Source: Planotetraspora mira
GTDB lineage: Bacteria; Actinomycetota; Actinomycetes; Streptosporangiales; Streptosporangiaceae
Direction: 5' to 3'
Assembly: GCF_016863275.1 (NCBI RefSeq)
Contig: NZ_BOOO01000053.1
Coordinates: 1-56,693, forward strand
DNA length: 56,693 nucleotides
Part shown: positions 21,734 to 53,888 of the stretch, in pieces
Position numbering within the stretch: position 1 is the first letter of the stretch
How the letters are laid out: each line of letters starts with the position of its first letter
Program-made: the position numbers and the translations under genes
The notes under the pieces: model-generated
Database searches by the model: none
The model's input: the letters and a program-made list of their open reading frames with translations, nothing else
What the model was told of the DNA's origin: nothing

Positions 21734-21748
21734 CGGGAACGGCCAGGC

Positions 21749-22024: not shown

Positions 22025-22129
22025 CGGTCACTCCTTGTAGTCAGCGGTCCCCTGGATAAGTCTCCCCCACGCGACTGCGATAGCGCGCCTTGTGAATGCT
22101 TGAAGTTGGATGCAGCCGTTTGAGACTGC

Positions 22130-22174
22130 TTGCGCTCTGGAACGTACCCACGTAGCGTGACGATCACGCTACGT
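22130..22174 (+). promoter_or_regulatory. Conjugation-operon promoter with 25-bp palindromic operator
   Basis: ACGTAGCGTGA-CGA-TCACGCTACGT (22150-22174) is a perfect inverted repeat with 11-bp arms. A TTGCGC (-35, 22130-22135) and a TAGCGT (-10, 22153-22158) with 17-bp spacing place the -10 inside the palindrome, which suggests repression by direct occlusion. Confidence 0.65.
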
Positions 22175-22217
22175 AATGCAACTGTCCGAGACGGGACGAC
22201 AGCGGGGAGCGCACCTA

Positions 22218-30913: not shown

Positions 30914-31171
30914 GCTGATCCGCAACCACAACGGCGATTCGGCCACGAGCTCGCGTAATCTCCCGCGGTCAGCGCGCTATATCCCGCGAACGATCCAGTC
31001 GGGCCCGCGTACGCGGCTACGTCACCGAGGACCGGGTGGTTCACGCGGTGAGCTCGAGGAAATCCCCGACGATTGGCACTTTGCGGTGCACGGCAAGCTT
31101 TTCCCTCAGCCCAGCCAGCGTCGCGGTCGAGCCGTCGCATGCCGTGGCGAGCCATTCTGGCCAGGGCACTA

Positions 31172-31753: not shown

Positions 31754-33186
31754 GTGGTCGCTGGAGCCAGCGTCCGAGCAGCCTTGTCGAAGCGCTCGCA
31801 GAACGCTTCGTCGATCGATTCCGCCACCTGCCGTACCGGCCGCAACTCGTTCAGCACCCGCACGGACGTCAGCCTCTCCCCGAGGTCGGGCAAGATCGCC
31901 AGTCCCTCCTCGATCGCGGTCTGCCGGTCGCCGTCCGCCACCGCCGCTGCGGCAAGCCGGGCCCGATAGTACGCGCGGTCTCGGGAAGAGCGGGAGGGGT
32001 CGTCTAGGACCGCTCGATACAGCCGAGCGGCACGGTCAGGATGGCCGAGCTGACTCCTGCCCATCGCCTCATACCCAGTGATCTCGGACTGGCTGATGAA
32101 GGCGGTCCACGGGTGGTCAGCATCGTGGGAGTTGCGGTCGAGCTCACTGCGTGCCCGCGAGATCGCCGCCCGGAAGGCTACCTCGTCCTCAAGCTGGGCA
32201 TAGGCGAGCGCCTGACGAAGCGTGATCAGGGTGTGGAGAGTCGCGGAGCGGGTGTGGCGGGCGACGTCCGCCGCGCGGTCAGCAAATCGCAGAGCCTCAC
32301 GGGCGAAGCCGCGGCGGCCCGTTACGCGAGCCAGGTGCGTTGCCTGTTGCGCCATGTTCACGTAAACGTGCACCAACAGCTCGCTGTCGCCAGAGCTGCC
32401 TGCCAACAGCGCTGCCTCGCCGTACAGGGAACGAGCGAGCCGCTGGTTGCCGGAGTCGTAGGCCAGCCACGCGGACACGATCCCCAGGTCGGCGGTCACC
32501 ACGACCAGGTCGCGCCCGACCTGAGCGGTGTAGTCGGACTCGTCCAGCATGGCTCGCGCCCTGGTGAAGACCTTCTGCGCCTGATCGAGGAGACCGGCTC
32601 CACCTACCGTATGGTCCTGACTGCGCAGACGCCCGAGAGCCGATTGCAGGTAGCGAACATGGGCCCGGTCGGCACGCTCGGGAGGAGGCAGCAGCGCTGC
32701 CATAGCCAGACCTGATGCCATCGCTCCGAACTCCCGGCGATCGAGATCCACAGCGTCAACCCCCCAAAAACCGACCTCATCGTCGCTTTCCAGGGTGGCA
32801 CTCTCATGGCCCAGGATGAGCGGCAGCAACGCCGCTCGCGGCATGCCCAGTTCGTCGCAGACCCGCAAGATCTCGCGCACGTCGTGAAACGTCCACCGCT
32901 GACGCCGTTCGATCTTGGTGACCACCGATTGCGACCAGCCGACCAAGCTGCCGAAGTCGAGCTGGCTCAGCCCGGATGCTCCCCGCAAAATCGCCAGCAC
33001 CGCGCCCATGTCAGTGCGAGCGAGCGCCTGACGCAACGGAAGTGAGTCCCAGATCCACGTCGGGGTGAGCCCCGTTAATTCTCGGGCCGCCGTCAGGCAC
33101 GCCCCGCAGAGCGGCTCGGGGTTGTACCGGCTGAGTCTGGCGAAGCGGCACGCCGGACATACCCGATCGTTCGCACTCTGGTCCAT
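31750..33186 (-). CDS. XRE regulator with zinc-ribbon-like start and TPR-like C-terminus
   Basis: A 478-residue regulator. It starts with a possible zinc ribbon, CPACRFARLSRYNPEPLCGACL (two C-x2-C pairs), then a helix-turn-helix around residues 55-115 (ILRGASGLSQLDFGSLVGWS, QSVVTKIERRQRWTFHDV). The remaining 320 residues are a helical TPR-like array (for example DSGNQRLARSLYGEAALLAG and HTLITLRQALAYAQLEDE). Such XRE-TPR proteins regulate secondary metabolism and plasmid functions in actinobacteria. ATG 33186 has GGAGG eight nt upstream. It is divergent from the biosynthetic-type cluster and is its best candidate regulator. Confidence 0.9.
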   Translation of the reverse strand: MDQSANDRVCPACRFARLSRYNPEPLCGACLTAARELTGLTPTWIWDSLPLRQALARTDMGAVLAILRGASGLSQLDFGSLVGWSQSVVTKIERRQRWTFHDVREILRVCDELGMPRAALLPLILGHESATLESDDEVGFWGVDAVDLDRREFGAMASGLAMAALLPPPERADRAHVRYLQSALGRLRSQDHTVGGAGLLDQAQKVFTRARAMLDESDYTAQVGRDLVVVTADLGIVSAWLAYDSGNQRLARSLYGEAALLAGSSGDSELLVHVYVNMAQQATHLARVTGRRGFAREALRFADRAADVARHTRSATLHTLITLRQALAYAQLEDEVAFRAAISRARSELDRNSHDADHPWTAFISQSEITGYEAMGRSQLGHPDRAARLYRAVLDDPSRSSRDRAYYRARLAAAAVADGDRQTAIEEGLAILPDLGERLTSVRVLNELRPVRQVAESIDEAFCERFDKAARTLAPATT

Positions 33187-33468
33187 GCGGCGTTCCTCCA
33201 CCAGCCAGGGATGTGCGTCGTCAGCGATATTGTCCGGATCTACCGCAGACTCAGGCCGAAACCAGTTTCACCGTAGCCTCAGGTCAACGTCCCCGTAAGC
33301 CAATATGGCCTACCCGACCACGGCCAGGTCAGGACACAAGCGCGTTGGCTATCAGGCCGGCATTCGTCACGCTCGCAGCGGTACCTCTTTTGCGCACACT
33401 CTCCGTCGCTCACGGTCACCACGACGTGGCGGCGCATTCCATCAGAATCGCTGCCCAGGAGACCCCTC

Positions 33469-33807
33469 ATGGACGTACTCGTCGCCGGCACCCAGACGTC
33501 ACCACCAATCCCGACAGCCGCGTTGGTGGCGCGGCAGTTGGACGCTCACCTGGCGGCCACCTACGGGATCAGCGGGAGGATCACCGCTGCCCAGCGTACG
33601 GCGGTGCTCCGGCTCGACGACTTGTGCGTCTGGGTCGACTCCGCGTCCGGCGAGATCACCTGGTCGACCGGGGAGCGCGACGAGCACGGCCGCACGCTGA
33701 CCGCCAGCGTGCCGATGGGCCAGTCCGTACTGGCGGCTGACCGGATCGTCACCCGCTACTGGCAGGTGCGGGGGCTCGCCGGCGACTACTCCGTGCGGAT
33801 CGGCTGA
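33469..33807 (+). CDS. Hypothetical protein upstream of the nucleotide-modification cluster
   Basis: A 112-residue soluble protein, ATG 33469 preceded by CCAGGAGACC. Predicted alpha/beta: helix AALVARQLDAHLAATYGI, then strands VLRLDDLCVWVDSASGEITW and DRIVTRYWQVRGLAGDYSVRI. No family recognised. It is divergent from the XRE-TPR regulator across a 282-bp promoter region and is followed 4 bp later by a second small gene, so it opens the rightward cluster. Confidence 0.7.
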   Translation: MDVLVAGTQTSPPIPTAALVARQLDAHLAATYGISGRITAAQRTAVLRLDDLCVWVDSASGEITWSTGERDEHGRTLTASVPMGQSVLAADRIVTRYWQVRGLAGDYSVRIG

Positions 33808-33811
33808 GGCC

Positions 33812-34195
33812 GTGCCGTCGTCGCTGATGATGCTCGTGCTGTGCTTCAAGGGCCTCTGGCCCCCCCGCCCCGGCGCCACCAACGTGTGGCGATGGCGGCG
33901 GCTGGGCGCCGACGGCCAGGTGCAGGAGTGGCAAGTGAGCTTCACAGGCACTCGGATTCAGGAGACGTGGACCGCCAACGGGGCAGTCCACCACGACGCG
34001 GGCCCTGCCCTGGGCGGCTCCTCCCTGGCGGAGTGGTTCATGACCCGCTCTCAGGAGCTACATGACGCCGGGTGGCGTGTGGTCAGCGTGGGGATCGACA
34101 TGACGGTGTCACCCCAACCGGTCGCAGGTAGCGGCCGACGACCTACCCGCCAGCCGCTCGGCGGCGCAGCTTATCCGCCCCAAATTCGGGGTTAA
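33812..34195 (+). CDS. Hypothetical protein
   Basis: A 127-residue frame from GTG 33812, four bp after the previous stop. The central part is protein-like: VWRWRRLGADGQVQEWQVSF, then ESTW-like strands and LAEWFMTRSQELHDAGWRVV SVGIDMTV, suggesting a small alpha/beta fold. The N-terminal residues and the Arg/Pro-rich tail are less convincing, and the ribosome site is poor. Function is unknown. Confidence 0.5.
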   Translation: MPSSLMMLVLCFKGLWPPRPGATNVWRWRRLGADGQVQEWQVSFTGTRIQETWTANGAVHHDAGPALGGSSLAEWFMTRSQELHDAGWRVVSVGIDMTVSPQPVAGSGRRPTRQPLGGAAYPPQIRG

Positions 34196-34368
34196 GGCGG
34201 GCGCTGTGCCTCCCGCACCGTCGAGCATGCACCGGCTTCCAGCACTACCACGGCGCGGAAGCTCGAGGTGCGGTGACCCCAGATTTCACTGATTGGAGCG
34301 GAGCACCAGCCATCTCCCTGGTGCATCTGCTCCGGGTCGCTTGTTTCCCGCACTCCGCCCGACCCAAT

Positions 34369-34386
34369 GCCCGCCGCCTGGCGGGC
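34369..34386 (+). promoter_or_regulatory. Hairpin just upstream of the TS-like gene
   Basis: GCCCGCC-GCCT-GGCGGGC is a perfect 7-bp stem with a tetraloop ending 18 nt before the GTG start and about 4 nt before the AAGGGAAC ribosome site. It could be an attenuator, a terminator of the upstream small genes or an mRNA-stability element. Confidence 0.45.
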
Positions 34387-34404
34387 CACGAAGGGAACGA
34401 CATC

Positions 34405-35346
34405 GTGACGATCTTGACCGGTGACAGCGTCACCGAGCTGTTCGCGAGCGCGGTCACCCTGACCATGCGCGGCCAGCAAGTAAGCCCGCGCGGCATGGCC
34501 ACCCGCGAGGTCCTCGACGTCCACATGGTGTTGACCCGGCCGCGGGCCCGGCTACTGCTTGCGCCACCGGCCCGGGTGCTCAACACCGCGTTCGCCGTCG
34601 CCGAGACGGTGTGGATCCTGTCCGGCTCCGACGATCAATGGATCTACGGCTTCAACGGACAATTGCGCCAGTATGCAGACGACGGTGTGCTGCGTGGCGC
34701 CTACGGCCCCCGCATGCGCCGATGGGGCGACGGCCAGGTTGATCAGCTGGCGCAAGTCCTCGCCCTCCTGAAGGCCGATCCGGACTCACGCCGGGCGCTG
34801 ATCCAGCTGTACGACCCGGCTCGTGACGCCGCAGGTCACCGCGACGTGCCATGCACACTCGGCTTCCGTTTCCACCTGCGGCAGGGCCGTCTGCACATGT
34901 CCACGACGATGCGCAGCCAGGACCTGTGGACCGGCATGCCGTACGACCTGTTCTTCACGACCACCTTGCATGAGCTGATGGCCGGGTGGTTGGGCGTCGA
35001 GCTCGGCGATTACCGTCACCATGTCGACTCCCTGCACCTGTATGAGCGCGATTTCGAGCGTGCTGAGTCGGTGACGGCGACAGAGCCGGGCGAAGAACTG
35101 CCGGAGCTGACGGTGCCGTGGGAGGGGTTCGACGCACTGCTCGCGGCCGTCCGGGCAGGCACGACGACCGGGTACCCGGGCTGGGACGCCATGGCCGAAG
35201 TGCTGAGCAGCTACCGCCTGTGGAAGACCGGGGAACGCGACACTGCTCAGGACATCGCTGATCGAGTCCGCGGGCCGCTCGGGCAAGGGCTTCGCGAGTG
35301 GTATCGGGAGCTGCGAGTGCGCAGCTGGCTGAGGGCGGCCCAATGA
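34405..35346 (+). CDS. Thymidylate-synthase-fold enzyme, predicted cytosine-nucleotide (hydroxy)methylase
   Basis: A 313-residue TS homologue. Conserved TS features are Glu67 (AETVWIL), Arg129-Arg130 (DPDSRR), catalytic Cys150 (DVPCTLGF), the phosphate/sugar motif Arg170-Ser171-x-Asp173 and His211-x-Tyr213 (LHLY). Spacing from Cys150 to Tyr213 matches E. coli TS (Cys146, Arg166, Asn177, His207, Tyr209) residue for residue. But position 181 is Asp (GMPYD) where TS has uracil-reading Asn177; known Asp enzymes at this site prefer cytosine (T4 dCMP hydroxymethylase, TS Asn-to-Asp mutants). The WDEW tryptophans of TS are also missing. GTG 34405 has AAGGGAAC upstream; GTG 34273 is an alternative. 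Coupled to the carbamoyltransferase (ATGA). Confidence 0.88.
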   Translation: MTILTGDSVTELFASAVTLTMRGQQVSPRGMATREVLDVHMVLTRPRARLLLAPPARVLNTAFAVAETVWILSGSDDQWIYGFNGQLRQYADDGVLRGAYGPRMRRWGDGQVDQLAQVLALLKADPDSRRALIQLYDPARDAAGHRDVPCTLGFRFHLRQGRLHMSTTMRSQDLWTGMPYDLFFTTTLHELMAGWLGVELGDYRHHVDSLHLYERDFERAESVTATEPGEELPELTVPWEGFDALLAAVRAGTTTGYPGWDAMAEVLSSYRLWKTGERDTAQDIADRVRGPLGQGLREWYRELRVRSWLRAAQ

Positions 35347-37082
35347 ACGCGCCGACGCCTCGCCGGCTGGCACCCGCGGTGGTACTGGGCCTGTGCTCCT
35401 ACACGCACGATTCGGCAGCTGCCCTGCTGGTTGATGGCGAACTTGTCGGGTTCGTCGAAGAGGAACGTCTGTCGCAGGTCAAGCACACCCGCACCTATCC
35501 GGCCAAGGCAGTGAACTGGCTGCTCGGCCAAGCCGGCATGACGGCTGACGATGTCAAGGTCGTCGGCTACAACTTTCACGGCCTGCGCTACCTGGCCGCC
35601 GTGCCGGGCTCGGTCAGCATGCTGTTCTCGGCCACTACCCGCGGGCGAGCGCTGCCGCGCGCGGGCTCCTTCACCAAAATCGCTGCCCGCGCCGTACGCC
35701 GTGCGGTTACCCTGCAGCGGATGTTTCCCGGCGCGCGGATTGACGCGATCGCGCATCACCGAGCCCATCAGCTGTACGCGTTCGCCGCCTCAGGCTGGGA
35801 GGACGCCGCCGTCCTGATCGTCGACAGCCTCGGTGAGACCCAGACAACTACCATCGCCGCCGCCCGGCAGCGTGCTCCCGGGCGACCACAGGTCCGCCCC
35901 GTGCACGCTCTGCATGACCCGGCCTCCCTCGGCTACGCCTACGGCGCGGTCACCGAACATCTCGGTTGGCGGCGCGGGGACGAGGAAGGCACCGTGATGG
36001 CCCTGGCCGCTCTGGGCGACCCGGCGCGCTTCCGGAACCTGTTCGAAGTCGCCATACCACTCACGCGCGATGGCTTCGCCTTGAACCCCTCCCTGTTCCT
36101 GGTCCGGGTCCTGTCCTCGGGGTACCCACGGTTATCACCGCGTTTCGCGGCCGCCACCTGCCCGCCTCGCGACTCGCATGCGCCGATCGAGCAGGTCCAT
36201 CGTGACCTGGCCGCTGCCCTGCAAGAGCGCACCGACACAGTCATGCTGCACCTTGCCCGCTTGGCTCGTGCCCGGACTCGGGCCCGGCGGTTGTGCGTGG
36301 GCGGAGGCGTGGCAACCAACTGCGTCAGCATCGGCCGCATCATCGACGCGCAGATCTTCGATGAGGTGAGCGTTCCGCCGGCACCGGGTGACGCCGGGAC
36401 CGCCATCGGCGCCGCGGCGGCCACGTATCTGGACTTGGGTGCCGGCCCGCTGTCAGGCGTCGCCGGGACCTGCTACCTGGGGCCTTCTTTCCCCGACATC
36501 GAGCGCGATCTGTCTGCATGGCCAGGCCTCACCTCACGGCCCGTCCATGGCGATGAGGCTGAGTTCCTCGCCGAGCAATTGGCGAGCGGGCGCATCGTCG
36601 GACTGTTTCGCGGCCGGGTCGAAGCCGGTCCCCGGGCCTTGGGCGCCCGCTCCATCCTGGCCTCACCGCTGGAAGCGGGCGTGGTCGATCGGCTGAACGC
36701 CACGGTCAAGTTTCGCGAGCCGTTCCGGCCGTTCGCCCCGATGGTCTCGGTAGAACGGGCGGCCGATTACTTCACCCTCGGCCAGGAGGCGCCGTTCATG
36801 TCGATGGCCTCCGGGGTGACCGAACTCGCATGGCAGCAGATCCCCTCGATCGTCCACGCGAATGGAACTGCGCGCCTGCAGACCGTCAGCAAGGAGGGCA
36901 ACCCGTTCATGCACGCGGTTCTGGAGGCTTTCGCCCGCCGTACCGGCGTCCCTGTGCTGATCAACACTTCGCTCAACGTCAAAGGCAAACCGATATGCGG
37001 CACCCCCGCAATGGCGCTGGACTGCCTGGCCTCCTCGGGGCTGGACGGACTGCTGCTGGAAGGCAGGTGGGTGAGCAAGTGA
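35343..37082 (+). CDS. NodU/TobZ-family O-carbamoyltransferase
   Basis: A 579-residue enzyme of the family that makes carbamoyl-adenylate from carbamoyl phosphate and ATP and transfers the carbamoyl group to an alcohol. The N-terminal Kae1-like domain begins VLGLCSYTHDSAAALLVDGE and has the His motif IAHHRAHQLYAF with VLIVDSLGE and LCVGGGVATNC. The C-terminal YrdC-like domain has VGLFRGRVEAGPRALGARSI, FREPFRPFAPMV, HANGTARLQTV and PVLINTSLNVKGKPI. Length is normal. It overlaps the TS-like gene (ATGA) and the next gene (GTGA). The acceptor hydroxyl is unknown; a hydroxymethyl pyrimidine or sugar is inferred from context. Confidence 0.93.
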   Translation: MNAPTPRRLAPAVVLGLCSYTHDSAAALLVDGELVGFVEEERLSQVKHTRTYPAKAVNWLLGQAGMTADDVKVVGYNFHGLRYLAAVPGSVSMLFSATTRGRALPRAGSFTKIAARAVRRAVTLQRMFPGARIDAIAHHRAHQLYAFAASGWEDAAVLIVDSLGETQTTTIAAARQRAPGRPQVRPVHALHDPASLGYAYGAVTEHLGWRRGDEEGTVMALAALGDPARFRNLFEVAIPLTRDGFALNPSLFLVRVLSSGYPRLSPRFAAATCPPRDSHAPIEQVHRDLAAALQERTDTVMLHLARLARARTRARRLCVGGGVATNCVSIGRIIDAQIFDEVSVPPAPGDAGTAIGAAAATYLDLGAGPLSGVAGTCYLGPSFPDIERDLSAWPGLTSRPVHGDEAEFLAEQLASGRIVGLFRGRVEAGPRALGARSILASPLEAGVVDRLNATVKFREPFRPFAPMVSVERAADYFTLGQEAPFMSMASGVTELAWQQIPSIVHANGTARLQTVSKEGNPFMHAVLEAFARRTGVPVLINTSLNVKGKPICGTPAMALDCLASSGLDGLLLEGRWVSK

Positions 37083-38134
37083 TCATCGGATACAGCTTCT
37101 GGGGCTTCCTCGGGCCGGGCATAACTGACACTCCCGACGGGGGACGCAGCCACCGGCGTCCCCTGATCGACGCGTTGATCGCCGATGGGCACCACGTGGT
37201 CTTCCTGCAGGCGAACCGCGATCGGCTGGAAGCCGGTGACAATATCGGCGGCCGGTACGCCTTCGACAGCGGGCTCCCCGACATCGATGTGCTGTTCCTG
37301 GAATGGCGGTGGCCAATTCCCGGCCGTAACACCACTCCATGCGGGACGCCGCTGCACACCTGTGATCTGCACCGTCAGGCCGAACTCCTCGATGTCTACA
37401 CGATCGTGCGGGATACGCCCACGGTGATCTGGGACAAGGACCGGCAGCTGCCTCCTGGCAGCGTGTGGCGGCTCCGGCCTGGGGTCGCCGTATGCGAAGC
37501 CGCCCTTGCCCTGACGCCGGGCGCGCACCGCCTGCTGTTTCCCCTCGACGACGCCGTCTTGGACCGCGCCGACCCGGCCGCGCTCGCCGTCCGACCACGG
37601 CCCATACCGCTGGTCTACGTCGGCAACCAGTACGGCCGCGATGAGGAGTTCGACCAGTTCTTCGCCCCGGCGGCCGCACGGTTCCCTCACGTTGTCGCGG
37701 GCAAATGGACCGACACCCGCCGCTGGCCTGACCTCACCTTCACCGGCCGCATTCCGTTTCCCCGGGTGAGCGAACTGTACGGCGGCGCGCTGGCCACCGT
37801 GCTGCTGCTGCCTGAGCGGTACGCGGCGGCTGGGCAGATGACCCAGCGCGTCTTCGAGGCGGTCCTGGGTGGGTGTGTCCCGGTAGCCCCGGCGACGATC
37901 CGGCAGGTCGACCGGTTCGTCCCCCCGCAGCTGATCGCCAACGACGCGGCCGACACGATCCGCATCATCCACTGGCTGCGCAGCATCAGGGGCACCCAGC
38001 GGCATGCGGACCTGCTCGCGGAGTGTCTGGCCCGCCTGGAGTTGTTCCGGCTCAGCAGCCAGCTTGAGGTGCTGCGGACGGTTCTCGCCGGCCTGTCGAG
38101 GGCCACGACAATGCGAGCCGGGAGGCGCGGATGA
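37079..38134 (+). CDS. GT-B-fold glycosyltransferase-like protein (CgeB-like)
   Basis: A 351-residue cytosolic protein. The N-terminal half starts with a Rossmann-type strand (VIIGYSFWGFLGPG) and DVLFLEWRWPIPG. The C-terminal half has a nucleotide-sugar-site-like arrangement: PLVYVGNQYGRDEEFDQFF, DLTFTGRIPFPRVSELYGGA and QMTQRVFEAVLGGCVPVAPA (the E-x-x-x-G-x-x-P pattern of GT-B enzymes). Likely transfers a sugar to the cluster product. Donor and acceptor are unknown. The GTG start overlaps the carbamoyltransferase stop by 4 nt. Confidence 0.75.
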   Translation: MIIGYSFWGFLGPGITDTPDGGRSHRRPLIDALIADGHHVVFLQANRDRLEAGDNIGGRYAFDSGLPDIDVLFLEWRWPIPGRNTTPCGTPLHTCDLHRQAELLDVYTIVRDTPTVIWDKDRQLPPGSVWRLRPGVAVCEAALALTPGAHRLLFPLDDAVLDRADPAALAVRPRPIPLVYVGNQYGRDEEFDQFFAPAAARFPHVVAGKWTDTRRWPDLTFTGRIPFPRVSELYGGALATVLLLPERYAAAGQMTQRVFEAVLGGCVPVAPATIRQVDRFVPPQLIANDAADTIRIIHWLRSIRGTQRHADLLAECLARLELFRLSSQLEVLRTVLAGLSRATTMRAGRRG

Positions 38135-38197
38135 CCTCACCGGGCAGCCGATGCAATCCGTCCTCCCGAAACGTCTCGTCAACTATCGTGGAGCGTC

Positions 38198-38716
38198 ATG
38201 CAGCAGATGAACCGGGTGGCCGTCGTCGGTTCAGGCGGCAGCGGCAAGTCGTACGTTGCCCGCGAACTCGGTCGGCTGCTCGGTGCCCCCGTCAGCCATC
38301 TGGACAGCGTCTTCTTCGACGACGAGTGGAACTCGCTGCCGCCGGAGAAGTTCGAGGCGGCGCAACGCGACCTTGTGGCCGCGCCGTGCTGGGTGATCGA
38401 CGGCAACTACAACTCCACCCTCCATGTCCGGCTCGACGCCTGCGACACCGTGGTCTTCATGGACGTGCCCACCTGGGCGGCCGTCTGGGGCATCGTCTCC
38501 CGGCAGATCCGGCATGGCGCGGGCCAGCACTCCGCCGGGGTCTACAACCGCATCAACTGGGGTGTGCTGCGGTACGTGGCAACCTATCGGCGCCGAATGC
38601 GCCCGCAGGTCCTCGCCAAGATCCACCAGTACGGTGGGCACTTGACCGTGGTGCGCTTGACCAGTCGCCGCCGTACCCGCCGCTGGCTGCAGCAGGTCAC
38701 CGCCGAGCACGGCTGA
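38198..38716 (+). CDS. P-loop kinase, adenylate-kinase/topology-modulation type
   Basis: A 172-residue P-loop protein: Walker A VAVVGSGGSGKSYVARELGR (residues 7-26), then HLDSVFFDDEW, DGNYNSTLHVRLDACDTVVF MDVP and the lid-like RRRMRPQVLAKI. These features match the small FlaR/topology-modulation kinases, which resemble nucleoside and adenylate kinases. In this setting a role in phosphorylating the modified nucleotide or sugar is plausible but not shown. ATG 38198 lies 63 bp after the previous gene. Confidence 0.82.
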   Translation: MQQMNRVAVVGSGGSGKSYVARELGRLLGAPVSHLDSVFFDDEWNSLPPEKFEAAQRDLVAAPCWVIDGNYNSTLHVRLDACDTVVFMDVPTWAAVWGIVSRQIRHGAGQHSAGVYNRINWGVLRYVATYRRRMRPQVLAKIHQYGGHLTVVRLTSRRRTRRWLQQVTAEHG

Positions 38717-38750
38717 CCCGCCCGGCCGTCCCGTCGGCGAGCATCCGGCG

Positions 38751-39596
38751 GTGGGATCGGTGACCGCCAGCAACCCGTTTCTCGACCCGGCCGCGCAGGC
38801 GCACCTGTACGGCGATGGGGCCCGCCTGGCAGCCCGGACCTCAGCGCTGCATAAGGCCAAGACCCATGGTCGGCCGGTCGCCGACGTAATCGCCGACCTG
38901 GCGATCACATTCCTGCCCTCACCGCGCCAGGCCCTGGTGGTCGACCTCGGCTGCGGACGCGGCACCAGCAGCCGCGTGCTGGCCGAGCGGGTGCGACCAC
39001 AGCGGCTCATCGCCATCGACGCCTCCGCGGCGATGCTCACCGCCGCGCGTTCCCGCCTCGAGACGAGCACCCGGGTGGTGTTCGTCCAGGCCGACTTCCA
39101 CCAACTGCCGCTGCCGGACGGATCGTGCACAGCGGTCGTAGCCGCGTTCTGCCTGTACCACGCGCAGAACCCCCGGATCGTCCTGAAGGAGATCGCCCGC
39201 ACCCTGGTGCCGGGTGGCGTTGCCGTGCTGGTCACCAAGTCCATCGACAGCTACCGAGCCCTCGATCTTCTGGTGGCCGCCGCCGGGCTCGACCCGCAGG
39301 CGCCCGAGCGATCCAGCCTGTACACGGCCGCGCACAGCGGCAACCTGGCCGAGCTGACCGCGCCGGTGCTGCGGCCCGTCCACCTGGAGCACGAGGAGCA
39401 CCGCTTTTCCTTCAGCGGCCTGGACCATGTCGCCGAATACGCGGCCACCAACCCGAAGTACCGCCTGCCGACCGGAGTGCGAGGGGATGCGGCGGCGATC
39501 GCTGCGGCGTTGCGGACCCAACTGCCCGACGAGCCCGTGCACACCACTTCGACCGTCACTTATCTGGTCGCCGCCCGCCGGGAAGGAGCACAGTGA
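38751..39596 (+). CDS. Class I SAM-dependent methyltransferase
   Basis: A 281-residue methyltransferase. Motif I is ALVVDLGCGRGTSSRVLAE (about 62-80), the SAM-ribose acidic residue is in LIAIDASAAMLTAARSRLE, motif IV is CTAVVAAFCLYHAQNPRIVL and the next strand is GGVAVLVTKS. The last third is a substrate-binding cap with HRFSFSGLDHVAEYAATNPK and a final TSTVTYLVAAR strand. Start is GTG 38751 or GTG 38760. It overlaps the next gene by 4 nt. Acceptor unknown. Confidence 0.87.
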   Translation: MGSVTASNPFLDPAAQAHLYGDGARLAARTSALHKAKTHGRPVADVIADLAITFLPSPRQALVVDLGCGRGTSSRVLAERVRPQRLIAIDASAAMLTAARSRLETSTRVVFVQADFHQLPLPDGSCTAVVAAFCLYHAQNPRIVLKEIARTLVPGGVAVLVTKSIDSYRALDLLVAAAGLDPQAPERSSLYTAAHSGNLAELTAPVLRPVHLEHEEHRFSFSGLDHVAEYAATNPKYRLPTGVRGDAAAIAAALRTQLPDEPVHTTSTVTYLVAARREGAQ

Positions 39597-40378
39597 CTGG
39601 CCCACGGGCGTTCACCAAGACCTACCCCTCCGCGCTGGCGTCTGCCCGTGCCGCCGCCCACCACGCCTGGCTGACTCGTCACGCGGGTCCGCTGCGCCAG
39701 CCCGCCATCAGGGCCGTCCGGCAGCACCTGATCGACTTCGACTTCATCGAAGGCCGCCACGCCACCGCGGAGGACCTGCCTGTGCTGGCTGCCATGCTCG
39801 CTCAGTCGCATGCCGCCGCCTGGGTGAGCGACCTGCACCGCGCCCGCCTGGACACCCCGCACCCGCTGGACGGCAGCGGCCCGCACGCCCTGGCGGACTT
39901 CCTCAGCCCCCGCCTGGCCGCCCTTCAGGGCCGCCGCCGCACCGGGCACCTCCCCCAAGCCACCGCCACAGCCGCTGAACGCCTCCTGCGGTCGGCGGCC
40001 ACCGGCTCTGCCGCCTTCTACAAGGACACCAACCCGCGCAACATCCTCATCACTGCGAGCGGGCGGCCGGTCGTGGTCGACGTCGACGACGTCACGCTGG
40101 CCCCCTTCGGCTACGACCTGGCCAAGCTCATCGTCACCCTCGCCATGACGTACGGGCTGCTTCCGACCAGCGCGGTCACCTCGGCACTGGCCGCCTACAA
40201 CGACACCCTTCGCTCCCACAGCCACCAACTGGCCGGCGTCCCGCTGGTCCAGCTGCTGGCCTACGCCGACCTGCACCACGTGTTCACCGTCCCTTACCTC
40301 GGTCGCGGCGGCTACCGCTATCCCTGGCCGCAGGTCCGTCCCGATCTCCCCCTCCCAACCCCGGAGGTCTCCTCGTGA
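39593..40378 (+). CDS. APH-fold phosphotransferase (small-molecule kinase-like)
   Basis: A 261-residue protein of the aminoglycoside-phosphotransferase/protein-kinase-like fold. The C-terminal catalytic part has FYKDTNPRNILITASGRPVV followed by VDVDDVTLAPFGYDLAKLIV, corresponding to the H/K-D-x-x-x-x-N loop and the metal-binding D in the D-x-D region. The N-terminal lobe is short (helical ATAEDLPVLAAMLAQSHAAA). It would phosphorylate a small hydroxyl compound, perhaps the cluster product or a sugar precursor, or give self-protection. GTG 39593 has GGAAGGAG upstream and overlaps the previous stop. Confidence 0.78.
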   Translation: MTGPRAFTKTYPSALASARAAAHHAWLTRHAGPLRQPAIRAVRQHLIDFDFIEGRHATAEDLPVLAAMLAQSHAAAWVSDLHRARLDTPHPLDGSGPHALADFLSPRLAALQGRRRTGHLPQATATAAERLLRSAATGSAAFYKDTNPRNILITASGRPVVVDVDDVTLAPFGYDLAKLIVTLAMTYGLLPTSAVTSALAAYNDTLRSHSHQLAGVPLVQLLAYADLHHVFTVPYLGRGGYRYPWPQVRPDLPLPTPEVSS

Positions 40379-41022
40379 TCGTCACGGAGCTGGTGTTCGT
40401 CCGACACGGCCAGGCTGTCTGCAACGCCGCCGGTGTCGTGGGCGGCCCACGCACCTGCACCGGCCTGACCGACCTCGGCCGCCAGCAGGTCCACCGGTCG
40501 GCCCGCCACCTGGCCGCTGAGCACGCCGACTCCCCGTTCGCCGCGGTGTATGCCGGGCCCCGGCTGCGCCTGCAGCAGACCGGGCAGCTCCTGGCAGCCG
40601 CGGTGGGTTTGCCACTGCGCACCGAACCGGGGCTGGACGGCCCCGTCCACGGCCAGGCCGACGGCCGACCGTGGACGGAGGTCAAGACCGCCTTCGGCGG
40701 CGGCGTGCACGTCCACCCCGACCGGCCCTGGGCGGCGGGATCCGATACCTGGAACGGCTACCTACAGCGGGCAGGGGCGTTCTTAGCTGCCCTGATCGAC
40801 CGGCATGACGGCGAGCGGGTCCTGTTCGCCGCGCATGGCGAGACCGTCCTGTCCGCCCACGCCTTGCTGCTCAGCCTCGGCCCGGGGACGGATGCCGGGT
40901 TCACCGTGGACCACGGGTCCTTGAGCCGCTGGCAACGGCACCGTAACCGCTTCGGCCGGCACCGCTGGCTGCTGGAGCGCCACAATGACACCGCCCACCT
41001 CACCCCGGCAGCGGGGTCGTGA
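40375..41022 (+). CDS. Histidine phosphatase (phosphoglycerate-mutase-like)
   Basis: A 215-residue branch-1 histidine phosphatase. The catalytic RHG motif is in LVFVRHGQAVCN, the second Arg/His region is AVYAGPRLRLQQTGQLLA, and the late His is in VLFAAHGETVLSAHALLLSL. Such enzymes remove phosphate from small substrates including nucleotides and alpha-ribazole phosphate. Between two kinase-like genes, it may dephosphorylate a pathway intermediate such as the modified nucleotide (inference). It is joined by 4-nt overlaps to both neighbours. Confidence 0.9.
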   Translation: MIVTELVFVRHGQAVCNAAGVVGGPRTCTGLTDLGRQQVHRSARHLAAEHADSPFAAVYAGPRLRLQQTGQLLAAAVGLPLRTEPGLDGPVHGQADGRPWTEVKTAFGGGVHVHPDRPWAAGSDTWNGYLQRAGAFLAALIDRHDGERVLFAAHGETVLSAHALLLSLGPGTDAGFTVDHGSLSRWQRHRNRFGRHRWLLERHNDTAHLTPAAGS

Positions 41023-41759
41023 TGGCCGCGCAACAGGACCCACGTCTGGAACTCGCCGTCCGGCACCTCGGCCCCGTCACCATCCAGCGTTATCCGAGTC
41101 TGCCGCCGCACCTGCTGCTGCTCACCGACACCAGCGGCACCGGCTACGTGGTCAAACAACACCGCGATCCCGACCGGTTCGCACAGGAGGCCCACGCCTA
41201 CACCGCCTGGATCCCGCAGCTGGGCGACCGCGCCCCGCAGCTGATCGTCATCGATCCGGCCGCCAGCTTGCTGCTACTGACTCTGCTGCCCGGACGCAGC
41301 GCCGCTATCCTGCCGCCCGGCTCAGCCGCGGAACAGCACGCCCACCGCGCCGCCGGCCTGACGTTGCGCCTGTGCTCCATCAGATCCCGACGACGGACAA
41401 CGGCACAGCCGGCGCCGTCTACCTGGGACGGCGGCTGCGCGCGTGGGCCGACCGCGCCCACACCGCAAACCTGATCAGCTCGCGGCAGCGAAACGAGCTG
41501 GAGATGTGCGCTGCCGCGCTGGATGCCACCGCCATGGAGACCGCCATCTGCCACCTGGACTACCAGCCCCGCAACTGGCTCCTCGGCGACGACGGCAGGG
41601 CGCGAATCCTCGACTTCGAACACATGAGGCTCGACGCCCGCCTAACTGCTGGACCGGTTCGCCGCCATCGAAGCCCTCACTGCTCTGGTCCGAGGCCACG
41701 AGCGCGGTGACGCCCAGCTCACCACCCACGGCCGCGCCTTGCTCACCCGCATCCTGTAA
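41019..41759 (+). pseudogene. Second APH-fold phosphotransferase, two apparent frameshifts
   Basis: The first frame from GTG 41019 gives LELAVRHLGPVTIQRYPSLP, YVVKQHRDPDRFAQEAHAYT and RAPQLIVIDPAASLLLLTLLPG (nucleotide lobe). Near 41375 the reading must shift to continue with LHQIPTTDNG, LGRRLRAWADRAHTANLISS and the catalytic loop ICHLDYQPRNWLLGDDGRAR with ILDFEH. Near 41640 it shifts again to LLDRFAAIEALTALVRGHER and a stop at 41759. All three parts belong to one kinase-like protein of about 245 residues. Two indels may be decay or sequencing errors; the neighbours are intact. Confidence 0.75.
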
Positions 41760-41773
41760 CTCCTGGAGATCGC

Positions 41774-42775
41774 ATGAACGAGGCATCGTCCCTCGCCGAG
41801 CCCTGCTTCCCATTGCCCCGCCGGGCGGTGGTGACCGGCGCCGCCGGTTTCATCGGCTCCCACCTGGCCCAGGCACTGTTGGGACACGGAGTCACCGTGA
41901 TCGGCGTCGACCGCCGCAGCGCGGAGACTGACCCTAGTGCAGCTGCCAACCTGGCGGCCTTGCACCAGCATCCCGGCTTCATCCCGATCACGGCGGATCT
42001 GAGCACCTGCGCTATCGAACCGCTCCTCCTCGACGCCGACGTCGTCTTCCACCTGGCCGGCATCCCCGGCGTCCGACCCTCCTGGGGGCCACGGTTCCAC
42101 GACTACGTCGCCTGCAACATTCTCGCTGCCCAGCGGATCATGGACGCCGCCACCCTGCTACGGGTCCCCCGACTGGTGGTCGCCTCTTCCTCCAGCGTCT
42201 ACGGGCACACCGACGGCAGGCCCAGCACCGAGAGTGACCCCGTCCGACCTGCATCGCCCTACGCGGTCACCAAGCTCGCCGAAGAACAGCTGTGCCTGGC
42301 CCATGCCACCCGGCCGGACTGCGCGACCACCGTCGTGGCCCTGCGGTACTTCACTGTCTTCGGACCGCGCCAGCGCGAGGACATGGTCGTCCACCGCATC
42401 CTGGCCGCCGCTGTCGAAGGCCGGCCCTTTCCCATCTACGGGGACGGCAGCCAACGACGGGACTTCACCTACGTCCAGGACGCGGTCGCCGCGACGATCT
42501 CTGCCGCGACAGCGCCTATCGGCAGTGCCGTGATCAATGTCGGCGCTGGCACCACCTTCTCCTTGCTGGACGTCATAAAGCACGCGCGCTATCTCACCGG
42601 GCGACCCGTGGTGACCGAGCACTCCCCCAGGCGCCACGGTGACGTCCCAGCTACCTGCGCCGATTCGGCCGCCGCACGGCGTCTACTCGGCTGGGTTCCC
42701 TCCGTGGATCTGGTCACCGGGATGGCGGCACAACTGGCAACACTGACCGCGGCGCACCACAACGCCACATTGTGA
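41774..42775 (+). CDS. NAD-dependent sugar epimerase/dehydratase (SDR)
   Basis: A 333-residue extended SDR enzyme. It has the nucleotide loop AVVTGAAGFIGSHLAQALL (residues 18-36), DVVFHLAGIPGVRPSWG, the Ser in VVASSSSVYGHT and the catalytic pair SPYAVTKLAEE (Tyr-x3-Lys). It also has YFTVFGPRQREDM and FTYVQDAVAATISA. This is the UDP-glucose 4-epimerase/dTDP-glucose-type architecture acting on nucleotide sugars. It probably prepares the sugar used by the glycosyltransferase-like protein. It is the last gene of the cluster, followed by a strong hairpin. Confidence 0.92.
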   Translation: MNEASSLAEPCFPLPRRAVVTGAAGFIGSHLAQALLGHGVTVIGVDRRSAETDPSAAANLAALHQHPGFIPITADLSTCAIEPLLLDADVVFHLAGIPGVRPSWGPRFHDYVACNILAAQRIMDAATLLRVPRLVVASSSSVYGHTDGRPSTESDPVRPASPYAVTKLAEEQLCLAHATRPDCATTVVALRYFTVFGPRQREDMVVHRILAAAVEGRPFPIYGDGSQRRDFTYVQDAVAATISAATAPIGSAVINVGAGTTFSLLDVIKHARYLTGRPVVTEHSPRRHGDVPATCADSAAARRLLGWVPSVDLVTGMAAQLATLTAAHHNATL

Positions 42776-42811
42776 GAGCCGTGTCGCCGGGCGTGTCTTT
42801 GTGATGGTGTT

Positions 42812-42846
42812 GCGGGCGGTCACCGGGTGGAAGCGGTGCCGCCCGC
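42812..42846 (+). terminator. Terminator-like hairpin at the end of the cluster
   Basis: GCGGGCGG-T-CACCG and CGGTG-CCGCCCGC pair as a 13-bp stem with one bulged T and an 8-nt loop, 37 nt after the epimerase stop codon. Confidence 0.7.
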
Positions 42847-42999
42847 CCGCCTTCATGATCAGCTTATTGGTGTGTGGAATTTTGGGCACCTGGCTCGCCG
42901 GCGGGAGCGAGCCAGGTAGATGGCCGCCCAACCACATGGCCGATCAAGCCCGGGGAGGCACAGGCCTGATGGAAGCGATGGGCTCTCAGGACGTGTCCG

Positions 43000-43489
43000 C
43001 TACGAGCGACACGTGGCGCTCACTCTGAACTGGGACGCGATGCGGCTGGTGTTCGTGAAGTTGACGTGGTGAGACTCCGGCTTGTAGCCCTGTGGCCCCG
43101 GGTGGACCGTAAGCTGTCCTTCCGGGAATCTCGACGGTCTGCGACACGGTGGTGTCGGGGTAGTCGCACCCGTATCTCACTTGGACCCAGCTGGGTTCCG
43201 TCTTGCTGTTGTTGATGACGTCGATGCCGAAGCCCTCGCCACGGCCACCAGTGGCGGGTTCGAAGTTGTAGCGTCCGGCGAAGACGTTAGGCCCGGCAGT
43301 CCAACTGGCCGTGTCCAGCGTGCCAGTAGATTTGCAGTACCAGTACCCCCGGCCAATCGCGTTGGGCCCGATAGCTCTGGTATCCCATACCTCTGCGGAA
43401 GCCTAGGCCGACGGCACCGTCCCTACGAGCAGGCCTCCGGCCAGCGCTATTGCGATTGCCGGCCGCACTAAGCCCCTGGTTAGTTTCAT
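43000..43489 (-). pseudogene. Small secreted Cys-containing protein, stop after signal peptide and frameshift
   Basis: ATG 43489 opens a signal peptide, MKLTRGLVRPAIAIALAGGL then LVGTVPSA, followed at once by an in-frame TAG. The same frame then continues as a plausible mature protein: ASAEVWDTRAIGPNAIGRGY WYCKSTGT, FAGRYNFEPATGGRGEGFGI and VQVRYGCDYPDTTVSQTVEI. Near 43115 the better continuation moves to another frame, GQLTVHPGPQGYKPESHHVN and TSRIASQFRVSATCRS, ending at 43002. It would be a secreted, probably disulfide-bonded beta protein of unknown function, inactive as read. Confidence 0.65.
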
Positions 43490-43874
43490 GACGAGTCCCT
43501 GTTCTCCTTGTTGGTTAAAGGAATCTAAACAAAGGGTGCCCGTACTTGGGATCGGCTTGTCTCCGACGGTGCCGCAGGCCCAGTGAGTAGCTTGCGGAAT
43601 ATGCCTTGTCGGTGACAATCCCAGGCCCTTGTGGGGAGGACATTTGCCAACCCGCACGCACGCTCAGACGTCTTGAGTTCACGCTGAGGTTCCCCCCAAG
43701 CCAGGCGGTCCATATGACTGAGAGCCAGCAGCCCTTCCCCCACGACCCCGCACAGCCACATGGCAACCAGCCCGGCAGCTCGCCCTACCAGTCGTATCCC
43801 CGCCACCACCGCCGGGTCAGACCCGACACCGGCTCGTGGCCGGCGGGGCAGAGCCTGAGGGCTTCACGAGCCTT
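43490..43874. other. Gene-poor stretch with a truncated Pro-rich N-terminus
   Basis: 385 bp between the broken secreted protein and the immunity candidate. A plus-strand ATG at 43714 gives MTESQQPFPHDPAQPHGNQP GSSPYQSYP, which resembles the disordered N-terminus of actinobacterial small membrane proteins. It then runs into unrelated residues antisense to the immunity gene. It is probably a truncated remnant. Nothing else is supported. Confidence 0.35.
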
Positions 43875-44444
43875 CTACATTGGCCATTGGCCTGGGTCGA
43901 GTGCTCCTACGGAGTAGGTGTCATATATGTCGAGCAGGTCCTCGTCCTGCGGAATGTTGACCTCAGTGAGAGTCTCCCGGCAGGCCAGGGCGGTCAGCGT
44001 GACCAGTCCACGCAGACCCGGCAAGGACGATTCCGGGCGCCATCGCGCGGGAGCCGAGCCCGGCCACGGCATTGACCGGGCCGCGTCGCGGAGCTCCCGT
44101 GCGGCGCCACTGGGCAAAGCCTCCCAGGGGGCACCGCTCAGCATGGGCTGCAGGAACTCCTCCACGGCTTGGGCAAGGCACCGGTGCAGGGAGTCGGCCT
44201 CGTCCGCTGCGTCGCGCTCGTCGAAGAGGACATACAGCCCCAGCGTGGGAACGCTTCGGCAGGCTCGGACCACGGTCCGGCGCTCCGCCGTGGCCAGACC
44301 GTTCCACCTGGGATCCGGGAGATCCTCACCGAGCGCGGCGATTGCCACACGCTCCCCCTCGGCGATCCGGTCGCCCGGCAGAGCGAGGACAGTCATCTGA
44401 CCCGGCCGGTCCCAGCGCAGGACGCAGAGGTTTGGCGTCGTCAT
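43875..44444 (-). CDS. Candidate immunity protein coupled to the RHS gene
   Basis: A 189-residue soluble protein of no recognised family. It begins MTTPNLCVLRWDRPGQMTVL ALPGDRI and is otherwise mostly helical (LHRCLAQAVEEFLQPML, GAARELRDAARSMPWPG), with an acidic C-terminal part (EVNIPQDEDLLDIYDTY). Its ATG shares one base with the RHS stop codon (TGATG), so translation is coupled. Position directly after the toxin-like C-terminus of an RHS protein is the hallmark of cognate immunity genes, so I infer that role without sequence proof. Confidence 0.7.
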   Translation of the reverse strand: MTTPNLCVLRWDRPGQMTVLALPGDRIAEGERVAIAALGEDLPDPRWNGLATAERRTVVRACRSVPTLGLYVLFDERDAADEADSLHRCLAQAVEEFLQPMLSGAPWEALPSGAARELRDAARSMPWPGSAPARWRPESSLPGLRGLVTLTALACRETLTEVNIPQDEDLLDIYDTYSVGALDPGQWPM

Positions 44445-47400
44445 CAGCGCACACACATTTCCGGTCGACCCTCGACGTAGTTAAGGTCCCAGTTGTGGAC
44501 GGAGTTTTGGATTTTCAGGTTTCCGCCAGCGATCATGAAGTCCGCCATGGCCAGGTAGTAGTAGCAGGTACCGTGGGGTGCCCAATTGGCGACCGCCCGC
44601 GCTTTGTACTTGTAGGTACCGCTCACGTAGCCCGTACTGCCGATATGTTCCCATCCCCACCACCGCGAGCGGTAAAGACGTACCCGGATGGAGTACAGCG
44701 GCACCTTGGCTTTGCACTTGAGGTCTGCGTGGACGTTGACCACATGCGGGTTCGTGTGCGATCTGTGCACATAGGGGACGAAGGCTCCGCAGCCCCACGG
44801 GTTGGCGCCGTAGCGGCCGCTCAGGTCCGTGCAGTTCACACTGTCGGCGTTGCAGTAGCCGTAGCTTGCGGCGGTGCCGTCGAACTCCGGGTCCACGGAC
44901 AGGAAGCGAGCGGTACCCGGCTGGTAGAGCCGTGCCCCCATGAGGACGTCTCCGGTGAGGGTCTCGCTGGAGCGCTGCTTGGCTCCGAGCCAGCCGTACC
45001 GGTTGGGGAGGGTGCCCCCCAAGGGGTTGCCGTTCTCGTCGAAGGACTGGACGATCGGGGCCTTGGCCGGATCGAGCGGGTACTGGACCGCGACGTCTCC
45101 GTGGACATTCGTCAGCTGAAGCACGGTGTCGCCAGTGTCACTGGTGGTCGCCATCAGATCACCCGTGAGGTCACGCACGTTGCGGGAGATGGTGCGGGCC
45201 GCGCCGTTCTCGAGGATCCAGTCGGGGCTGTCCTCCTCCGTGCCGTAGTGGTTGGTGCCTTCCGAGGAGGGGATCCAACTGCCGTCCGCGCCGCGACTCT
45301 CGACGGTCCATGCCGCGAGGCGGCTGCCCGGGCCAAGGGTCCAGGTCTGGCGTCGGTCGTTGGCGGTCTGCCGGCGGATCATGTCGTTGACGTAGTAGTC
45401 GTACGCGGCCTGCGGGGTCTGGGCGGTGCGGCCGAAGGCGTCGTAGCCGGTGCCTGGTGCCACAAGGCGGTCGCCGGTGTCGTAGGTGTAGTTCACCGTG
45501 GTCGGCGTACCGGCGCTGCCATCGGGGTTGTCGATGACGGTGGCGAGAGCGGTGCGATTGGCGTTGCCATCGAAGGTGTAGCTGCGGTGAGTGACGGTTC
45601 CGACCTGCGTGTCGTCGACATGGGTCAGCCGGCCCACGGCATCGTAGGTGTTCAGTTGCTGCGCGCCGCCACTGTCGGTCCGGGTGACCACCTGACCGTG
45701 GATGTTGCTGTCGACAGTGTCATTCAGCAGCAGCGTGCCGTCGGCTCGGAGCCGGTAGGTCCGGGAGGCTTCTGCTCCGCTGGGATCGACGTCGATGGTT
45801 AGGTCGACCCCGCCCGGCAGGTGCTCGACCCGCAGCCGGTTGTCCGTGTCGTACTCGCCGTTGACGACACCGGCGACGGAGTCGCTGATCGAGGTGGCGG
45901 CCCCGGTTGGATTCTGGGTGCTGTCGTAGGTGTAGGTGGTGGTGGACGGCGCCGAGTCGGTGATCTGGACGGGCCGGTCGAGGCTGTCGTACCTGGTCTG
46001 GGTGGTGTTGCCCGTCCCGTCGTTGTAGGCGATCCGGCGGCCCAGCGCATCGTAGGTCTGGGTGACCGTGGTCGTGCCGTTGTTCACCGTCGCCACCTGG
46101 CCGGTCGCCGGCTCGTACGTTGTGGTGGTGTCGGGAACTGCGGTGCCGGATCCTCCGGACACGGAGACCTTGTGGACACGGCCAGCGTCGTCGTAGGTGG
46201 TCGTCGAGGTGCGGGTGACGCCGTTGGCGGTCTCGGTGGTCGTGGAGGGGTTGCCCCAGCGGTCGTATTCGACGGTCTTACCGGGCAACTCGCTCGGGCC
46301 GGGGCCGCCGGTGATGGCGGCTGCCGGGCCGGTGCTGCAAATCAGGTCGGCCCATTCGGGACGGTCGGCGCAGGGGCCGGTGCCGTTCGCGGACCAGTAG
46401 GTCGTCACCGTGGTGCCAGCGTCCTTGCCGTCGGACTTGGGCCGCGATCCTCTGGTCACACGGCCCTGGCCGTCGTAGGCGGTGGTAGTGGTGATGGCGA
46501 GTCCGTCCGGGTCGCCGATCGTGTGGGTGGGCAGGCCCAGGGTCCAGTCGTAGGTGGTGCGGGTGGTGCGCGGGTCCGCGTCGGAGGGGTATCCGTCTAC
46601 CGCGGCGCCGACCACGGTGCTGGTCACCTGGTACTGGACCTTGGCGGAGCCGTCAGTGGGACGGCCTTCGTCATAGTGGAAGACCGTGTGCTGGCGCGCC
46701 GCTACTTGGGATCCCGCGGGGACATCGGTGCCGCCGGAGGCTGCGTTAAGGGTGCCGTCGAGGGTGATGAGGTGCAGGGGGCCGAGTTCCTCGGTCTTGA
46801 ATGGGCCGTTGTACAGCGTTGTGATGGACAGTAGCTGTGCTCGCTGGGCGGAGCTGTCCTGAGCGATCCCCAGCGCGTCGAGTTCGTCCGCGTGAGAGCT
46901 GCCCCCCACCGCCAGTTCCCGATTGCCGGCAGTGAGCTGGCGGCTCACGTTTCCAAGGCTGTTGTACTCGGTGCTGGTGATGCGGTGGCCGGGGTTGGCT
47001 GTGTTGACTTCGCGCCCGGAGCCGTCAATGTAGGTGATCGTGGCGCGGTTGTAGTCGGCAGCCCGTAGGTCAGTGCCGCCGTGGGACGCCGGTACATGAT
47101 CGGCCACATCCGGCGGGAAGACCGCGGTGGCATCTGTGGGCGCAGCCGCCTGCCCCCATGCTGCGACGTCACCGGCCCCCATGGCTTCGGGAGCGCCTGC
47201 TCCGGTCAGCGGAACATCGTAGACGACGCTGGTCTTCGCGGTGCCGCCGTCGGTCTCGTTCTCGCTGCCGGACCGGAGGGTAGGCCGGGAGGCGGACAGC
47301 AGCATGCCGTCGCCCGCAGTGGCGGCGCTGCCTGCCTTGCCGTAGGTGAATGTCCACGGCAGCTGGCCGGGCGGGATGAAGGTGATCACGCGGCCAACGC

Positions 47401-53876: not shown

Positions 53877-53888
53877 GGAAATACGCCC

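Follow-up and report, generated by a model that had tools for sequence, protein, structure and literature searches.

What does a compact run of nine genes in Planotetraspora mira build? The window analysed here, to which all coordinates refer, is a stretch of 56,693 nt of contig NZ_BOOO01000053.1. Between positions 34405 and 42775 it carries, on the + strand throughout, the genes TS, CT, GT, kin, MT, APH1, HP, APH2 and SDR in series. TS denotes an enzyme of the thymidylate synthase fold and GT a glycosyltransferase, while CT, kin, MT and HP stand for a carbamoyltransferase, a P-loop kinase, a methyltransferase and a histidine phosphatase. A first-pass annotation of the same DNA had proposed a compact pathway acting on a pyrimidine nucleotide; our analysis supports this proposal, with the base now predicted to be cytosine and the sugar a uronic acid. 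On balance, the cluster probably encodes a specialised pathway towards a 5-hydroxymethylcytosine (deoxy)nucleotide product that bears a hexuronic acid as well as a carbamoyl group and a methyl group; the acceptor atoms, the order of the steps and the product itself we infer from sequence. The pathway is real and conserved, and it is undescribed as far as the open-access literature search reaches.

The conservation of the cluster was assessed in a GTDB scan with one genome per species, in which 136 relatives of the GT were found and the best 80 were kept as loci. The exact order TS-CT-GT-kin-MT-APH1-HP-APH2-SDR was observed in 47 of these 80 loci, and TS, CT and GT were consecutive in 77, one of which has a TS nearer to the TS2 query. 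The remaining loci comprise one contig whose start lies only a little ahead of the GT, and two clusters of another, sister type. An SDR-like gene precedes the TS in 25 of the 80, with varying gene sets further on. These gene-order lists contain only + strand genes resembling the queries, with unrelated intervening genes invisible, and their lines were summed by hand; loci L025 and L077 appear to duplicate the genomes of L016 and L017, the family set and the GTDB set overlapping by two. Among the hosts are Streptomyces, Nonomuraea, Planomonospora, Nocardia, Micromonospora, Salinispora, Actinomadura, Frankia, Glycomyces and a Solirubrobacterales MAG. The gene order recurs little changed among numerous soil actinobacteria, and its conservation across many actinobacterial genera exceeds chance. 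The first-pass annotation had named a gene order not conserved elsewhere as the outcome that would speak against it, and because the order is conserved, its prediction withstood this check.

Among 149 related genomes, the GT was present in 10 (the own genome counted), with TS and CT beside it in 8 of those (own included) and another arrangement in 2. The cluster is nevertheless sparse, because the GT was detected in only 2 of 396 genomes, the own one included, in an even sample of the phylum (E 1e-30). The GT matched no plasmid record and, at E 0.01, none of 50,697 phage records. In a CT tree (82 rows, quick method, rows with a stop left out), most groups follow taxonomic families. The window copy groups with Planomonospora, Thermoactinospora and Nonomuraea (support 92, open inside, and in no starred set), and copies from the window's family split into at least two lineages.

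The prediction of the base comes from the TS-fold gene (34405..35346, +; PF00303, 4.7e-27), the predicted (d)CMP 5-hydroxymethylase of the cluster, for which 34405 is the likeliest start and an upstream GTG at 34273 is likewise in frame. Its best solved relative is the CMP 5-hydroxymethylase MilA (1.1e-34), and the next, a thymidylate synthase, follows at 4.9e-19, which bears out the comparison with MilA drawn in the first-pass annotation. Residue counts were taken over 78 aligned loci, after 8 of 86 matches with a stop in the translated match were dropped. Cys150 and Asp181 were found in all 78 loci, Asp181 lying at the site of Asn177 in E. coli TS, the position that decides between cytosine and uracil (PMC8670742). 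Asp147, equivalent to Asp145 of T4dCH, stands three residues before Cys150 in 77 of the 78; an Asp at this site activates water and marks hydroxymethylation, the second part of the signature being a Ser (or Thr) two residues before a Tyr (PMC6400193). The Tyr is conserved as Tyr100 in 78/78 loci, two residues beyond Gly98. Taken together, these residues predict cytosine as the base and an enzyme that would work like a hydroxymethylase, a wording we keep to and do not strengthen because the signature Ser (Ser94 of T4dCH) is replaced by Gly98 in 78/78 loci. A housekeeping thymidylate synthase was considered and rejected: the cluster TS is unlikely to serve this role because the own genome has one ThyX match on another contig (C26) and no further PF00303 match.

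Regarding the ribose, Lys133 and Ala176 of MilA go with a preference for CMP, and when they were replaced by Arg and Ser the enzyme came to prefer dCMP (PMC5175136). The window TS does not carry the MilA pair; because it has Arg129 and Ser171, it is predicted to favour dCMP, a prediction that rests on two residues in a divided family. Position 129 is Arg in 75 loci and Lys in 3, position 171 holds Ser in 35 loci and Gly in the other 43, and the pairs are distributed as R/S in 35, R/G in 40 and K/G in 3 loci (L022, L024 and L103). The deoxy/ribo preference is not uniform across the family because of this split between Ser and Gly at position 171, which bears on which ribose the TS takes.

The sugar donor is indicated by the last gene of the series, the SDR (41774..42775, +; SDR fold, 3.4e-50), predicted to be a UDP-glucuronate 4-epimerase, with a uronic acid as the predicted sugar. 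Its best solved relatives in the PDB are MoeE5 (1.8e-72) and 6zl6 (2e-64); the latter, labelled 'Epimerase domain-containing protein' in the database, is presumably the UDP-glucuronate 4-epimerase of Bacillus cereus. For MoeE5 and the B. cereus enzyme, both UDP-glucuronate 4-epimerases, the residues holding the carboxylate have been named, and decarboxylases carry Glu at the third of these sites (PMC7984243, PMC12338863). Through alignment, Ser139, Ser140, Ser141, Thr194 and Arg201 of the window SDR were found to correspond to Thr126, Ser127, Ser128, Thr178 and Arg185 of the B. cereus enzyme, with Ser139 for Thr as the one substitution and Ser141 at the third site. Across 80 aligned loci (rows with a stop left out), Ser139 is present in 80, Ser140 in 78 and Ser141 in 74, and among the 78 with letters at the remaining positions, Thr194 is present in 77 and Arg201 in 73.

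The carbamoyl group would be supplied by the NodU/TobZ-type O-carbamoyltransferase (35343..37082, +), which has both the N- and the C-terminal domain of this family over cut-off (PF02543, 5e-37; PF16861, 1.2e-60). Its nearest PDB relative is the decarbamoylnovobiocin carbamoyltransferase (1.8e-109), with GdmN and TobZ also near. Carbamoyltransferases of the NovN, GdmN and TobZ type act on antibiotic hydroxyls. In phage-type contigs, a CT beside a TS carbamoylates 5-hydroxymethylcytosine and also free 5hmdCTP, and candidate specificity residues of the CT are named (PMC8670742). The window CT is about 30-32% identical, over 64-71% of its length, to the phage CTs listed among its matches. The carbamoyl acceptor may be the nucleotide or the sugar, and sequence alone does not decide between them.

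The GT-B-like glycosyltransferase (37079..38134, +) matches PF13524 weakly, at 0.0011 and below the curated cut-off; the same model matches 41 of 43 GT relatives, the best at 6.1e-9 (the GT alignment excludes L099). Its top PDB match is the T4 DNA beta-glucosyltransferase (BGT), at a non-significant E of 0.01-0.06. In hhalign, one GT-BGT pair gave a probability of 25.8% (E 7e-4, 143 columns), compared with 0.1% for T4 UvsX. In this low-probability alignment, the invariant Arg257 and Glu260 of the GT face an Arg and a Glu of BGT, which we take to be UDP-binding residues. The likeness to BGT is treated as a lead only.

In the proposed scheme, the TS-fold enzyme would, judging from its residues, hydroxymethylate dCMP or CMP at C5. 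The SDR would convert UDP-glucuronate to UDP-galacturonate, from which the GT would move galacturonic acid onto the hydroxymethylated cytosine unit. A hydroxyl would then receive a carbamoyl group from the CT, on the sugar in the manner of NovN or TobZ or at the 5-hydroxymethyl group. Carbamoylation of the 5-hydroxymethyl group is the route of the phage enzyme (PMC8670742). The MT would cap another position, and the P-loop kinase, the APH kinase or kinases and the histidine phosphatase would set the phosphorylation state of the intermediates. Several observations weigh against this scheme. In the TS, Gly98 replaces the signature Ser, one locus has Asn at position 147, Arg130 is Gln in 12/78 loci and position 171 is divided as described above. 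In the PDB search, the GT found no significant solved relative, and kin and APH1 found no relative. By Pfam, no transporter was found among the cluster ORFs scanned and no MilB-like hydrolase among the ten cluster ORFs (none was sought elsewhere in the genome), as judged by the fold family that we assume for MilB-like genes. Additionally, because one gene (APH2) is broken, the pathway may have lost part of its function in the window.

Four other explanations were weighed against this scheme. A mildiomycin/blasticidin-type pathway, in which cleavage of the hydroxymethylated nucleotide releases 5-hydroxymethylcytosine as the free base and the GT joins it to a uronic acid in an N-glycoside that is later carbamoylated and methylated, is unlikely, yet it is the one to which we give most room. 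It draws on MilA as the nearest solved TS relative, on the predicted UDP-uronate epimerase, on the described MilA-MilB-MilC chemistry, with MilC using UDP-GlcA (PMC11784345), and on a radical SAM gene in copies L019, L020 and L092. However, no MilB-like N-glycosidase was found among the cluster ORFs scanned, Lys133 and Ala176 of MilA are Arg and Ser in the window, and the radical SAM protein of L019 matches the BlsE model weakly. The replacement of Ser94 by Gly98 in 78/78 loci bears on a different reading: because of it, a methyl product is possible from the TS, which could be a C5-methylase of dCMP or CMP, with every decoration (carbamoyl, methyl, uronic acid) on the sugar part. The best solved relatives of the CT, which act on antibiotic hydroxyls, would fit this arrangement, but the water-activating Asp three residues before Cys in 77/78 loci (the rule of PMC6400193) and the proximity to MilA make it improbable.

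The lack of an exporter among the cluster ORFs scanned, the several kinases, the nucleoside diphosphate kinase (NDK)-like frame in all four sister clusters and the presence of the window copy on the same contig as conjugation-type genes would agree with an intracellular nucleotide analogue, that is, an antimetabolite, possibly anti-phage, that is not secreted as an antibiotic. We hold this to be quite unlikely, given that PADLOC matched only the methyltransferase among the ten ORFs, that the CT tree runs largely by taxonomic family and that an ABC-transporter-like ORF lies near 8/80 loci (by eye). Least credible of all is phage-like hypermodification of the host's own DNA with 5-carbamoyloxymethyl- or glycosyl-cytosine. 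All 80 kept loci come from bacterial genome records, the GT is unmatched in the phage records searched, and the epimerase, phosphatase and APH genes are foreign to such a scheme, even though a TS with Asp177 and an adjoining carbamoyltransferase underlie 5-carbamoyloxymethylcytosine in phage (PMC8670742) and the GT has T4 DNA beta-glucosyltransferase as its top, non-significant PDB match.

Returning to the proposed cytosine nucleotide pathway, further evidence on the GT comes from a sister cluster observed in L022, L024, L102 and L103, where a member of the GT family, 55-60% identical to the window GT, is encoded together with a different TS-fold enzyme (TS2), an NDK-like protein and one more conserved protein. 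TS2 is more MilA-like, with Lys at the site of MilA Lys133 and Gly at that of Ala176 (L022, L024 and L103). The GT thus accompanies a cytosine-type TS in two settings, which supports a putative role of the GT on a modified cytosine unit. The NDK-like frame was seen by eye in 4/4 sister clusters and scored in L103 (PF00334, 8e-16). The further protein has a CxxxCxxC stretch and, by eye, appears radical SAM-like; its Pfam value in L024 is 0.1, and Pfam finds no match in L022, L102 and L103. In the same surroundings, a DnaQ-type exonuclease lies beside the sister cluster in L024, with relatives in L102 and L103, and a LanB-type lantibiotic dehydratase is encoded at 17448-18848 of L103, from Salinispora mooreana.

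Extended versions of the cluster were identified by clustering the ORFs within 10 kb of the GT over the 80 loci and profile-scanning one member per group. One group, found in 44 loci, has a member weakly matching TIGR04396 (surface carbohydrate biosynthesis; 25 bits vs a cut-off of 125), and the protein of this kind in L041 had no meaningful PDB match. Other groups are AHCY-like (35 loci), a KdsB-type cytidylyltransferase (32 loci; 257 bits vs a cut-off of 193), NUDIX (22 loci) and HAD phosphatase (21 loci). These counts are lower bounds because the loci end at about 10 kb. The extended-version genes occur mostly in Streptomyces, and none adjoins the window copy. The radical SAM protein of L019 scored 1.4e-8 against the BlsE model (34.6 bits, cut-off 400); viperin was rejected as its identity, at 56 bits vs a cut-off of 180. 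There is a slim chance that the Streptomyces versions point to a base-modified cytidine nucleotide whose dedicated task is to carry an activated sugar or, alternatively, that serves in building one sugar-nucleotide conjugate. If true, this would be a nucleotide cofactor of a kind not described before, and the window would carry its nine-gene core.

Compared with known systems, the window shares individual enzymes with several of them. MilA and the window TS share the base-selecting Asp and a second Asp three positions ahead of the Cys; MilA differs in Lys133/Ala176, against Arg129/Ser171, and in an extra Thr before AYG, where the window reads LRG-AYG. NovN, GdmN and TobZ are of the same family as the CT and share both of its domains, whereas the acceptor in the window is not fixed by sequence. 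MoeE5 and the B. cereus epimerase resemble the SDR in sequence and in the predicted carboxylate-binding residues, while the pathway differs. Polyoxin likewise contains a C5-modified pyrimidine nucleotide, and PolO is the polyoxin carbamoyltransferase. The mildiomycin cluster has a TS-fold hydroxymethylase and a uronic-acid UDP-sugar (PMC11784345), both of which are predicted for the window too; in contrast, the window shows no MilB-like gene and has a CT, a P-loop kinase, APH, a phosphatase and an epimerase. The phage system of PMC8670742 likewise encodes an Asp177-type TS and a NodU/TobZ-type CT on one stretch, whereas the window is bacterial and has in addition a GT, an epimerase, kinases and a phosphatase. 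PolB, cited in the first-pass annotation as a precedent for a TS homologue, had to be set aside, because PolB is a flavin-dependent ThyX homologue whose fold differs from that of TS PF00303 (PMC5003785). The cluster contains a PF00303-type TS in place of the ThyX-type C5 methylase of the polyoxin type, and a PolB-like identity was rejected owing to the different fold.

The first-pass annotation had also recognised no described cluster in this gene combination, and this still holds: no description recognised as the cluster was found in open-access PMC literature (titles and abstract beginnings, preprints excluded and subscription papers mostly outside). Within this search, a TS-fold cytosine hydroxymethylase, as predicted here, a uronic-acid donor enzyme and a carbamoyltransferase were not found described together. 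With a core of up to nine genes, and TS-CT-GT in 77/80 loci, the cluster is well suited to product discovery.

The remaining genes lie between the GT and the SDR. The small P-loop kinase (38198..38716, +) matches NCBIfam PRK08118 at 3.6e-41, below its cut-off, and its P-loop residues are conserved in an alignment of 81 loci. It is followed by a class I SAM methyltransferase (38751..39596, +; PF08241, 3.4e-23), residues 17-168 of which match part of the PADLOC mad2 model (5.5e-21), with a further match to the type III MTase model (0.0028); beyond this methyltransferase, PADLOC models found nothing in the ten cluster ORFs. Next are the APH-fold kinase APH1 (39593..40378, +; PF01636, 2.5e-8), the histidine phosphatase (40375..41022, +; PF00300, 2.9e-25) and APH2 (41019..41753, +). 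Profile searches confirmed the nine enzyme classes named on one strand by the first-pass annotation, with GT and kin below their cut-offs. The second APH gene proved not to be intact: its relative in L017 aligns to three separate pieces, 41022-41375, 41363-41644 and 41646-41753, in frames 3, 2 and 3, and part of this query finds no match in the window. In 55/55 other loci having both APH2 halves, the halves share one open frame. Eight genes of the window cluster are apparently intact and one is broken.

Overlaps of 4 nt, said to join most of the genes, occur at 5/8 junctions between TS and SDR; the exceptions are gaps of 63 nt (GT/kin) and 34 nt (kin/MT) and the gap preceding the SDR, which comes after the broken APH2, whose end was set at 41753. 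The hairpin thought to close the cluster, at 42780-42795 after the SDR, is not above chance (2 terminator-like sites vs a shuffle mean of 2.7). The start once placed at 33469 was likewise revised. Neither of the ORFs at 33469-33807 and 33812-34195 reached a Pfam cut-off, and tblastn found counterparts of them in none of the 9 family loci or the 80 GTDB loci; the conserved unit begins at the TS gene. A promoter scan gave no site, and an Rfam scan of 30000-44500 gave nothing above the gathering score. Elsewhere in the genome, a remnant of a second copy was found on contig C40 near 91.5 kb (L002), comprising 37 C-terminal TS residues at 81% identity; by eye, a neighbouring ORF contains a CT-like stretch.

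The cluster is flanked on one side by conjugation-type genes at 20819-28624 (SLT/NlpC and TraG/VirD4-like) and on the other by DUF2637 and DnaG/Toprim-like genes at 52881-54947. The TraG/VirD4-like gene matches PF12696 at 1.9e-27, with an additional TraG P-loop match below cut-off. The element boundary was not found, a direct-repeat search giving only a tandem pair of 126-nt repeats, 82% alike, at 14122-14373. Near other copies, ten hand-picked ORFs included DUF2637 in L019 and L024 (the latter a sister-type locus in the neighbourhood scan), the N-terminal domain of an integrase in L021, and transposases in L016 and L023. Of the conjugation-linked element proposed earlier, the presence of conjugation-type genes on the contig is borne out. 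Mobile carriage may not be general, as the check covered the surroundings of a few copies and the CT tree runs largely by taxonomic family; mobility is an observation on few copies and not a general rule. On the same contig, a protein with an Mrr-type restriction endonuclease domain (PF04471, 3.8e-29) is encoded at 18833-20485 (-), and a 2413-residue protein, which we take to be RHS/YD-repeat-like, lies at 44444-51685 (-), between the cluster and the primase-like region.

Two plasmids were found to carry other TS-containing gene groups. On Streptomyces plasmid p3211-1 (L004), a gene annotated as thymidylate synthase adjoins genes for a nucleoside 2-deoxyribosyltransferase, a hydroxymethylpyrimidine kinase, P450 and flavin enzymes, a distinct TS-containing cluster. 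In Geobacillus plasmid pGeo12a (L005), two annotated thymidylate synthase genes flank an APH gene, accompanied by NUDIX, PqqD and ABC transporter genes; this conjugative plasmid may thereby carry a further TS-based cluster.

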